Shown here in pieces: positions 2,749-55,377 of a stretch of DNA of 64,000 nt. The notes under the pieces were generated by a model. The model did no database searches, was not told the DNA's origin, and was given only the letters and a program-made list of their open reading frames with translations. A program made the position numbers and the translations under genes. The DNA lies in contig NZ_CACZTX010000001.1 in assembly GCF_902784195.1 (NCBI RefSeq), positions 434,001 through 498,000 of the forward strand, in the 5' to 3' direction. The stretch is from an uncultured Methanobrevibacter sp. (GTDB taxonomy: Archaea > Methanobacteriota > Methanobacteria > Methanobacteriales > Methanobacteriaceae). The stretch's first letter is position 1, and every line of letters starts with the position of its first letter.

Positions 2749-5430
2749 CTAAAATAATGGATCTTTCACTCTAGCAATCCTAAATGAATTAAGTATAACC
2801 ACCAAAGTTAATCCCAGGTCACCAATACCAACAGACGTCATTAAAGTAATTAAACCTAATATCGCAAGGATTACAAAGAGAGCCTTTACGAAAATGGATA
2901 GTGAAATGTTTTGTTTAATAATATTCATTGTCTTTTGGCTTAAACTGAATAGGTAAGGCAACTTACTAATGTCATCCTGCATTAGAGCCACATCAGCGGT
3001 TTCAATAGCTACATCGGAACCTGCAGCACCCATTGCAATACCGATGTTTGCACGTGCCAATGCAGGTGCATCATTGATACCGTCACCAACCATAGCCACA
3101 TCACCAAACTTGTTACGGATAGTGTCAAGAATGTTTAGCTTATCTTCAGGCAAAAGATTGGAGTAGACATAATCCAGTCCGATTTCATCAGCAACTTTCT
3201 TGGCAGCAATCTTATTGTCACCAGTTAACATAATGGTTTTTACACCTTGTTCCTTAAGATCCTTGATTACATCTGGAGCATTGTCACGAATCTTATCAAC
3301 AACTGTTAAGCTTGCAATAACTCCATCCTCATCACCAATGAAGACAACTGTTTTACCTTCGGCAGAGAACTGATTAATTTCTTCTTGGGAAATGTTAAAC
3401 TCACTGCCTTCAATTAAAGACTCATTTGCAGCATAGAATTGTTTTCCTTCAACATTAGCTATAATGCCTTTTCCAGGAACATTCTTAAAGTCCTCAATTT
3501 CCTCAAACTCTATATCATTTAATGTAGCATAATTAACAATCGCATTTGCTATAGGGTGAGATGAACTGTTCTCCAATGAAGCAGCTATCCTGACAATTTC
3601 ATCTTCAGCATAATCATCATTCAATACATTGATGTCACTTAATTCGAGTTTTCCTTCTGTTAAGGTACCTGTTTTATCGAAAATTACCGCTTTTACATTA
3701 CGCATTTCCTCTACATAGGTACTTCCTTTGATTAACACCCCTTTTTTGGTAGCTGAAGTGATAGCTGACACCATACCGATTGGAGTGGAAATCAGGAATG
3801 CACAAGGACATGAGATTACCATAATTGAAAGTGCTTTGTAAACCCAGTCCACAAGGTTTTGTCCAAAGAACAAGGGAGGTACGAACGCCACACAAGCTGC
3901 AATTACAATCATCAATGGAGTGTAATACTTGGAAATACGTTCTACCAAAGTTTCAGTGTTTGATCTATTCAATTGAGACCTTTTAACAAGGGTTACAATT
4001 TTAGAAATAACTGAATCCTTAGCTTCTTTTGTTACAACCATTTCCAAATACCCGTCTTCATTAACGGTACCTGAGAAGACTTCATCCCCAACAGTCTTGG
4101 TTACAGGAAGACTTTCACCGGTAATGGATGCCTGATTGATTGAAGAAATACCTGAAACTATATTTCCATCCAAAGGAACTTTGTCTCCAGGCCTTATAAC
4201 TACAATTTCACCGATTTTGACATCATCAACATTACGGACTTCCTCTCCATCTTCAACTTTTACCCTTGCAGTTTCTGGAGCTAATTCAACCAATGATTTG
4301 ATTGAACGTTTTGCTCTATGCTCAGCCAAGTCTTCCAAGAATTCCGCTATGTAATATAATAATGCTACAGCTGCACCCTCTTCCCCATGGCCTATTATGA
4401 ATGAAGCGATACAAGCAATCACTACAAGAAGTGCTGGACCGACAGTATGACGTTTTACAAGGGATTTATATGCAAGAATAGCTATTTCATAACCTGCTAT
4501 AAGTGCTCCAAGCATGTATATTATGGTTACAATTGTATGGTCAAAGGATAACCATTCAAGTATATGTCCCCCTATAAAGAGTATTCCACTTGAAACCATG
4601 ATTTGAATTGGCCTATTGTAAATAAGAGGTTTTCCTTCTGCTATAAGCTCTTCATGTTCCTCTTTATCTTCATCATCTGTACAATCAGGGCACCCGCATA
4701 GAGAGAAATCGTCATCATCGTCATCACAACCACAACCACAAGTTCCATCCTCATGCTCATGATCGTGGTCATGGTCATGATGACGCTCATGTCCATGATG
4801 GTGATGGTCATGTTCATGATTATGGCCATGGTCATGACAATCACAATCAGGGTCTTCACAAGAATTCTCCACTATTTTAAGATTATGCTCATGTCCATGC
4901 TCATGATGATGCTCATGATCTTCATCATGACAATCATCGTCATCACAACCACAACCACAAGATTCTTCTTCATGCTCATGATGATGATTATGATTGTGGT
5001 CATGATGATGCTCGTGGTCATCTTCTTCATCATGGCAGTCATCATCTTCACATCCACAGCGACAGGACTCATCATGTTTTTCTTCCTCATGTCCATGCTC
5101 ATGTTCGTGACCATGACTGTGGTCATGATTATGCTCATGGCTGTGGTCGTGATGATGGTCGTGATCATGGTCATGGTCATCATCTGCACAATCAGGGCAT
5201 CCACAAAGACTTATATCAACATCTTCATCATAATCTATCTCTTCTCTATGATCAAAAACACTTAAATCAGTGCTTTTCTGATAATCCTTCAATAACTGCT
5301 TATTGTAATGCTTTTCATTCATACATTTTTCATCACTGCAGTCAGGATCAAAACAAATATAATTGTAATGTTCGGGATTAAAGCATTCCTCTTCATTACA
5401 ATCAGGATCATAACATTTATTTTCTACCAT
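2749..5430 (-). CDS. P1B-type metal-exporting ATPase with very long His/Cys-rich N-terminus
   Basis: An 893-residue metal-transporting P-type ATPase. The core holds TGES in the actuator domain, SCPCAF in the channel helix (near residue 540), the phosphorylation motif DKTGTLTEG (near 583) and GDGINDAPALARANIGIAMG (near 782). The CPC motif and overall fit point to the Zn/Cd/Co/Pb export subgroup (ZntA/CadA). The first roughly 270 residues are unusual: no standard GMxCxxC heavy-metal domain, but repeated C-x-DPDC units, LCGCPDC twice, CGCGC-DDDDC units, and long His-Asp/His-Glu tracts that should bind many metal ions. GGTG precedes the ATG. It follows an ArsR-type regulator by 65 bases and probably shares its transcript. 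Confidence 0.93.
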   Translation of the reverse strand: MVENKCYDPDCNEEECFNPEHYNYICFDPDCSDEKCMNEKHYNKQLLKDYQKSTDLSVFDHREEIDYDEDVDISLCGCPDCADDDHDHDHDHHHDHSHEHNHDHSHGHEHEHGHEEEKHDESCRCGCEDDDCHDEEDDHEHHHDHNHNHHHEHEEESCGCGCDDDDCHDEDHEHHHEHGHEHNLKIVENSCEDPDCDCHDHGHNHEHDHHHHGHERHHDHDHDHEHEDGTCGCGCDDDDDDFSLCGCPDCTDDEDKEEHEELIAEGKPLIYNRPIQIMVSSGILFIGGHILEWLSFDHTIVTIIYMLGALIAGYEIAILAYKSLVKRHTVGPALLVVIACIASFIIGHGEEGAAVALLYYIAEFLEDLAEHRAKRSIKSLVELAPETARVKVEDGEEVRNVDDVKIGEIVVIRPGDKVPLDGNIVSGISSINQASITGESLPVTKTVGDEVFSGTVNEDGYLEMVVTKEAKDSVISKIVTLVKRSQLNRSNTETLVERISKYYTPLMIVIAACVAFVPPLFFGQNLVDWVYKALSIMVISCPCAFLISTPIGMVSAITSATKKGVLIKGSTYVEEMRNVKAVIFDKTGTLTEGKLELSDINVLNDDYAEDEIVRIAASLENSSSHPIANAIVNYATLNDIEFEEIEDFKNVPGKGIIANVEGKQFYAANESLIEGSEFNISQEEINQFSAEGKTVVFIGDEDGVIASLTVVDKIRDNAPDVIKDLKEQGVKTIMLTGDNKIAAKKVADEIGLDYVYSNLLPEDKLNILDTIRNKFGDVAMVGDGINDAPALARANIGIAMGAAGSDVAIETADVALMQDDISKLPYLFSLSQKTMNIIKQNISLSIFVKALFVILAILGLITLMTSVGIGDLGLTLVVILNSFRIARVKDPLF

Positions 5431-53342: not shown

Positions 53343-53559
53343 AAACTCACCAAATTTCCAAAAAAGAATTATTATTTATTTATATGTAATTTTTTATTTA
53401 AATAGATAAAGAATTATAAAAAATAAATTTCTAATTAAAAATTGATTTTCTAATCTTAAATCAATGTTATAACGAAATAAAAACAATATGCCAAGTTTAA
53501 ATCAACATTAACCTCTAATTTTCCTATTATTTTATAAACAAACAAAGATAATTTAATTT

Positions 53560-53798
53560 TAGAGGTTTTTTCACTCCATTAAAAAATCACCCATTTTCGA
53601 GAAAATTTTGGAGGTGATAATATTAAAATTTCGGTTAAAGAAATATTCCTTTTAATCATTGAAATCAATTCCCAGATTTCATTCAAAGAATTTTTCTTTT
53701 ACTTTGTCGAAGTTTTGAAATTAATTATCCTCCTAATTAAATAATTAATTTCTTAAAAAAAAACTAAAGTTAGATTTCTTTGGAGTGAATTTCCTCTA
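53560..53798. other. 239-bp fold-back element (MITE-like or structured RNA)
   Basis: The two halves of this stretch pair along most of their length. From outside in: TAGAGG (53560-53565) with CCTCTA (53793-53798); TTCACTCCA (53570-53578) with TGGAGTGAA (53781-53789); GGAGG (53610-53614) with CCTCC (53729-53733) and adjacent ATAAT/ATTAT; AAAATTTCG (53625-53633) with CGAAGTTTT (53708-53716); TGAAATC (53660-53666) with GATTTCA (53675-53681). A TATA-like TTTTATAAAC (53530-53539) lies about 25 bases before the left end. No clear target-site duplication flanks it. Confidence 0.6.
53622..53744 (+). CDS. Possible 40-aa hydrophobic peptide with ATT start, inside the fold-back element
   Basis: An exceptionally strong GGAGGTGAT (53610-53618) stands three bases before ATT at 53622, from which a 40-codon frame runs to TAA: KISVKEIFLLIIEINSQIS, then a Phe-rich stretch (FKEFFFYFVEVLKL) and a hydrophobic Leu/Ile end with a terminal Lys. 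There is no ATG, and the same bases take part in base pairing of the fold-back element, so translation would depend on its opening. It may be a real small membrane peptide, a leader peptide, or a chance frame in a structured RNA. Confidence 0.3.
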   Translation: MKISVKEIFLLIIEINSQISFKEFFFYFVEVLKLIILLIK

Positions 53799-53902
53799 CT
53801 TTATTTAACTAGTTTAGTAAATTAAAAAATGGGCTAAAATGGTTTAATTTAACTTTAATATCTAGCAAATGTTTAAATATTAAAAATAGTAAAATATTAA
53901 TT

Positions 53903-53991
53903 GATAATACTAAGTATTATCTAGAAATTATTATTTAAAATATTTTCTTGAAAATGGGATTATTAAAGGAACATTACTTTCCTTTAATAAT
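53903..53991 (+). terminator. Two perfect hairpins downstream of the fold-back element
   Basis: GATAATAC/GTATTATC (53903-53921, loop TAA) and ATTATTAAAGGAA/TTCCTTTAATAAT (53959-53971 and 53979-53991). The second has a 13-base stem and is followed by T-rich sequence, so it could end a plus-strand RNA starting near 53560, about 110 bases before the next gene. Confidence 0.5.
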
Positions 53992-54695: not shown

Positions 54696-55016
54696 TCAAT
54701 CATACAATTTATTAACCACTTCTAAAGCCTTATTGAATGGCTGCATACCTGAAGTTAAAAGAACTACCTTTAAAACATCCATCATTTCATCACGACTGAT
54801 GTCAAGTTCCTTTTTAGCTTTAGAAACCTGTTTTAAGAATGAAGAGCTTTCAGGTTTAGTTGCAGAGATTGCAATAGCTATTAACTTTTGAGTCCTGTAA
54901 TCCAAAGCATTGGCATTCCAAACATTCTTATCTAAATTTTCAATTGAATCATATAGTTCAGAATCCTCTTTTTTAATTCTGCGAATGCCTTTGCCGTAAA
55001 ATACCTTTTCACCCAT
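54696..55016 (-). CDS. Carboxymuconolactone decarboxylase/AhpD-fold protein, copy 2
   Basis: 106 residues, all helical. FYGKGIRRIKKEDSELYDSI, ALDYRTQKLIAIAISATKP and KVVLLTSGMQPFNKALEVVNKL follow the CMD pattern. The CxxC pair of AhpD peroxidases is absent, so a thiol peroxidase role is unlikely. It is a tandem paralogue of the next gene (55054-55377), sharing most of its C-terminal half. Ligand and function unknown. Confidence 0.78.
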   Translation of the reverse strand: MGEKVFYGKGIRRIKKEDSELYDSIENLDKNVWNANALDYRTQKLIAIAISATKPESSSFLKQVSKAKKELDISRDEMMDVLKVVLLTSGMQPFNKALEVVNKLYD

Positions 55017-55053
55017 AATTTTACAACCTAAAAAAAAATAATAAACTATTAAA

Positions 55054-55377
55054 TTACTCTTCGAAGACTTTATTAGCTATTTGCAAAGCCTTATTGAATG
55101 GTTGCATGCCTGAAGTCAACAATACAACTTTCAAAACATCCACAACTTCATCACGAGTGACACCCAATTCCTTTTTAGCACTCATGATCTGCTTTTCAGT
55201 TGCACGGCTGTCTGCATTGGAAGCTGCAATTCCAATAGCTATCAACTTTTGAGTCTTGTAATCCAATGCCTTTCCATTCCATACAGCATCATTTAATGCT
55301 ACAATAGCTTGGTATAAATCTTCATCTTCCTCTTTTAATTTTCCCATGCCTTTACCGTAAAACACTTCCTCTTTCAT
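55054..55377 (-). CDS. Carboxymuconolactone decarboxylase/AhpD-fold protein, copy 1
   Basis: 107 residues: FYGKGMGKLKEEDEDLYQAIV, ALDYKTQKLIAIGIAASNAD and VLKVVLLTSGMQPFNKALQIAN. Same family and same lack of CxxC as its downstream copy, 37 bases away; the pair arose by tandem duplication followed by divergence in the middle (residues 60-75). A co-transcribed hetero-oligomer is possible, since CMD-fold proteins form trimers and hexamers. Confidence 0.8.
   Translation of the reverse strand: MKEEVFYGKGMGKLKEEDEDLYQAIVALNDAVWNGKALDYKTQKLIAIGIAASNADSRATEKQIMSAKKELGVTRDEVVDVLKVVLLTSGMQPFNKALQIANKVFEE

Follow-up and report, generated by a model that had tools for sequence, protein, structure and literature searches.

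MITEs are usually multicopy, yet genomes with one copy have been reported (review PMC10969869). The element described here, a 239-nt fold-back at positions 53560 to 53798 of a 64-kb window (the whole stretch of DNA that was analysed) from an uncultured Methanobrevibacter sp., resembles MITEs in being short, non-coding, and AT-rich, in having inverted ends, and in showing a discrete presence or absence accompanied by a possible direct repeat whose length suits a target site. Unlike MITEs, it is single-copy, without a relative in any genome searched and without a partner insertion sequence among them, and its inverted ends are offset from the left edge of the gap that marks its absence from the nearest relative. 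It also recalls immobile intergenic long palindromes, or fold-back DNA, with which it shares an imperfect full-length inverted repeat within an AT-rich spacer, whereas the demonstrable presence/absence boundary and the repeat at its edges set it apart from them. Among methanogen RNAs, structured leaders and small RNAs are a third point of comparison: the fold-back has, like them, a stable long stem and a predicted hidden ribosome-binding site, but it lies between divergent promoters, and no homolog of it was found in the genomes searched.

Structure of the palindrome and its predicted pairings

The complementary segments that the original prediction had described are present across 53560 to 53798, and the imperfect palindrome over the full length of the fold-back is real. 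Reading the sequence and scanning for the end pattern gave a left inverted end, TAGAGGTTTTTTCACTCCA (53560 to 53578, plus strand), and a right inverted end that reads TAGAGGAAATTCACTCCA on the minus strand (53781 to 53798); both consist of TAGAGG, a spacing of 3 to 4 nt, and then TTCACTCCA. Aligned along their length, the two arms match at 80 positions, mismatch at 13, and have 33 gap columns, a score that was reached by 3 of 2,000 shuffles. The GC content of the block (22.7%) is raised relative to the adjoining spacer on its two sides (16.2% and 14.3%).

As RNA, the 239 nt fold with a predicted energy of –56.4 kcal/mol on the plus strand (z = –5.5; 0 of 200 shuffles as good) and –58.0 kcal/mol on the minus strand (z = –4.7; no shuffle as good). 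Because AT-rich DNA can make shuffles misleading, 638 stretches of 239 nt from the window were folded too and their energies regressed on GC content. After this correction the fold-back ranks among the two or three most extreme of the 638, with two stretches more extreme on the plus strand and one on the minus strand, and it has the lowest energy among the 240 low-GC stretches of the same length. The most extreme folding stretches of the window lie at 4660 to 5260, amid repetitive methionine-rich open frames, and the frame scanned in that region has no Pfam match. Wobble pairs number two on the plus strand and four on the minus strand, with no clear strand bias; since both strands fold equally well and the wobbles are not clearly biased, there is no sign, within these small numbers, of selection on an RNA from one strand.

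A ribosome-binding-site-like motif, GGAGGTGAT (53610 to 53618, plus strand), is predicted to be paired, as had been proposed for it, although the proposed partner CCTCC accounts for only about 40% of the pairing and a local hairpin for about 57%. In the minimum-energy fold, CCTCC is unpaired and occupies the loop of a perfectly paired 12-bp hairpin (53717 to 53752, plus strand). Forcing the pairing with CCTCC costs just 1.5 kcal/mol, so both pairings are plausible. The alternative pairing suggested for the outer TAGAGG, with the upstream AACCTCTAA, is borne out by prediction: once the flanks are included, TAGAGGT at 53560 to 53566 pairs with ACCTCTA at 53511 to 53517 (plus strand) with a probability of about 0.9 (about 0.93 for upstream pairing of TTAGAGG), and the pairing of TTAGAGG with the far arm has a probability of about 0.06, the upstream partner being strongly preferred.

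The locus in the nearest relative and the flanking promoters

The nearest relative used was the Methanobrevibacter olleyae MAG SIG14, with which 4.5 kb were aligned globally. The block is absent from SIG14 as one single gap of 269 nt (53528 to 53796), and the sequence flanking this gap is 87% identical on the left and 85% on the right. The fold-back is thus a discrete block, and its exact limits differ from the proposed 53560 to 53798, the empty site giving 53528 to 53796. The gap is edged by a candidate 8-bp target repeat, whose left copy, TATTTTAT (53528 to 53535), was read directly and whose right copy, TACTTTAT (53797 to 53804), was taken from the alignment and direct reading; the two are identical at 7 of 8 positions, a match expected by chance in about 2% of cases in such DNA when the register is free. 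The empty site in SIG14 holds TAATTTAT once. The left edge of the gap and the inverted end do not coincide, as 24 nt separate TATTTTAT from TAGAGG. The edge repeat would fit a target duplication, and a slippage deletion in SIG14 would fit it equally well. Since the surrounding spacer is missing in other species of the genus, those species are uninformative on gain versus loss. A recent inverted duplication in situ is disfavoured as the origin of the palindrome: the 183-nt adjacent spacer shows 4 gap columns between the window and SIG14, against 33 in the fold-back arms, and arms so much more gapped than the adjacent spacer probably did not arise in this way.

The block is flanked by a group 1 glycosyltransferase gene on the minus strand and a LOG/lysine-decarboxylase-like gene on the plus strand, which are divergent and are neighbours across the genus. 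The spacer between them measures 757 bp here, 488 bp in SIG14, and about 150 to 300 bp in most other species of the genus that have this gene pair. Farther along the window, at 54696 to 55377 on the minus strand, two adjoining genes of the carboxymuconolactone decarboxylase family form an apparent tandem duplicate. A promoter-like box of the glycosyltransferase gene, TATTTAAATA (53395 to 53404, minus strand), is kept in eight related genomes besides the organism's own, standing 53 to 118 nt ahead of the glycosyltransferase start codon in those eight. On the LOG side, a 93-nt non-coding block (53864 to 53956, plus strand) is identical in SIG14 and contains a candidate TATA box of the LOG gene, TTTAAATA, at 53872. 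It is the longest identical run in the aligned 4.5 kb, coding sequence included; around it, identity to SIG14 is about 85% in the adjacent spacer and 92 to 93% in the neighbouring genes. Within the organism's own genome and SIG14, the 93-nt block occurs at no other locus, its region folds with z = –3.6, and the 13-bp hairpin that had been noticed after the fold-back is exact and lies just past it (53959 to 53991). The 93-nt block could serve the LOG gene as a promoter/operator or as a small RNA, and it looks likelier to be functional than the fold-back.

The TATA-like box reported just before the fold-back is found at 53531, as TTTATAAA, and this 8-mer occurs 12 times in the 64-kb window. The box could be the fold-back's own promoter. 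The fold-back lies between the glycosyltransferase promoter and the candidate LOG promoter and so, barring a promoter of its own, probably belongs to neither mRNA.

Search for further copies

By the original prediction, a joint lack of a transcript, of compensatory changes in related genomes, and of a second copy would count against it. This is half borne out: no second copy turned up anywhere searched, and the searches gave no related sequence for counting compensatory changes. BLASTN and a scan for the end pattern, allowing up to 3 mismatches, found no further copy in the organism's own genome, and BLASTN and an exact-match scan for the end pattern found none in 138 other Methanobacteriaceae genomes (139 with its own). 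Across the own genome, 60 relatives, and the 139 family genomes, BLASTN returned nothing beyond short AT-rich matches. The best of these in the relatives (genome L032) straddles the point where two coding frames meet and was set aside as chance, and the best other end-pattern matches checked in the own genome lie inside coding frames. An exact-pattern scan of GTDB contigs and IMG/VR did not find the fold-back, the phage and plasmid collections each gave one marginal match, and no homolog on which covariation could be assessed was found in the relatives and family genomes searched.

By exact match, the end pattern is absent elsewhere in the 139 genomes, no partner element with the same ends was found among them, and a scan for the DDE_Tnp_1 transposase family found no member in the own genome. 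In the collections searched, the fold-back shows neither multiple copies nor copies in related genomes, as MITEs would; like MITEs, it has no transposase gene of its own, its longest open run being 53 codons and the predicted peptide lacking a Pfam match. Since the searches revealed neither another copy nor a partner transposase, we do not class it as a MITE.

Origin of the fold-back

We tentatively favour, with a probability of about 0.45, the insertion of one degenerate fold-back DNA element that is non-autonomous and resembles a MITE in form. Among the three readings originally offered, a mobile element or MITE is the best fit, given the single gap and the 8-bp repeat. Against it stand the lack of a second copy in the genomes searched and of a DDE_Tnp_1 transposase in the own genome, the offset of the inverted ends from the left gap edge, and the imperfection of the 8-bp repeat. 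The insertion is preferred because it explains together why the gap is discrete and edged by a repeat, why the ends are inverted, why the GC content is raised, and why the arms are gapped beyond the local divergence. The fold-back would have arrived as one unit, an imperfect palindrome from the start, and landed where the glycosyltransferase and LOG-family promoters diverge, in the spacer that separates them; the insertion, which a transposase may have carried out in trans, would have duplicated about 8 bp of target, and the element would since have drifted without function. We infer that the difference from SIG14 is a gain here and not a loss in SIG14.

The next best reading, which we consider rather unlikely, takes the palindrome as ancestral or neutral lineage-specific spacer, immobile and functionless, that SIG14 lost by slippage between the 8-bp repeats. 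Palindromes flanked by short direct repeats tend to be deleted, and this one lies between just such repeats; that the whole spacer is lineage-specific in its length speaks for the same view. Against it stands a fold that exceeds both shuffles and the other AT-rich stretches of the window, since neutral DNA would not retain such a structure for long. We are more doubtful still of a structured non-coding RNA, a small RNA or switchable leader transcribed from the box at 53531 with its ends paired and the ribosome-binding site hidden. The z score of –5.5 and the two competing predicted pairings of TAGAGG are consistent with an RNA, and so is the position of the box: the archaeal TATA-to-start spacing resembles about 25 nt, and TTTATAAA precedes TAGAGG by about that distance. 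On the other hand, the equal folding of both strands, the 12 occurrences of TTTATAAA, and the absence of the block from its nearest relative argue against an RNA, no homolog was found that could display compensatory change, and the position between both genes' promoters would place it in neither leader. Nor does it fall into a described family, as Rfam gave no match at the gathering score and the matches below threshold are at chance level. The suggestion of a regulatory RNA has thus gained no positive evidence past the predicted fold and the switch-like pairing.

That the fold-back encodes a hydrophobic peptide of 40 residues, initiated at ATT behind a strong ribosome-binding site that pairing hides, is very improbable. 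The frame (53622 to 53744, plus strand) has in its favour a GGAGG that ends 7 nt ahead of ATT and a motif, GGAGGTGAT, with a single exact copy in the 64 kb. That copy, however, compares with a chance expectation of 0.29, at least one being present in 26 of 100 shuffles, and the frame sits in the 53-codon open run, which is equalled in length in 27% of shuffles. The ATT start also speaks against a gene, Pfam gave no match to the peptide, and a search of 60 relatives yielded no more than two marginal matches, both from distant genomes (E = 0.04 and 0.10) and neither of them convincing. With a length expected by chance and no convincing peptide relatives, the frame is neither conserved nor statistically long; we do not consider it a gene, and the proposed leader peptide finds no support. 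Little weight can likewise be given to the fullest version of the original idea. This would be a small RNA of about 240 nt, specific to the lineage and transcribed from its own promoter, whose TTAGAGG would pair either with the upstream partner or with the far arm, thereby gating the buried site of the hydrophobic peptide.

The fold-back, then, is probably the relic of an ordinary insertion. Transcription and switching, if it had them, would make it more important. Were it a mobile fold-back, rumen Methanobrevibacter would retain in it a trace of non-autonomous elements, about which one relic copy tells little. It serves chiefly as a worked case, in which comparison reduced a conspicuous fold of AT-rich archaeal DNA to a presence/absence insertion.
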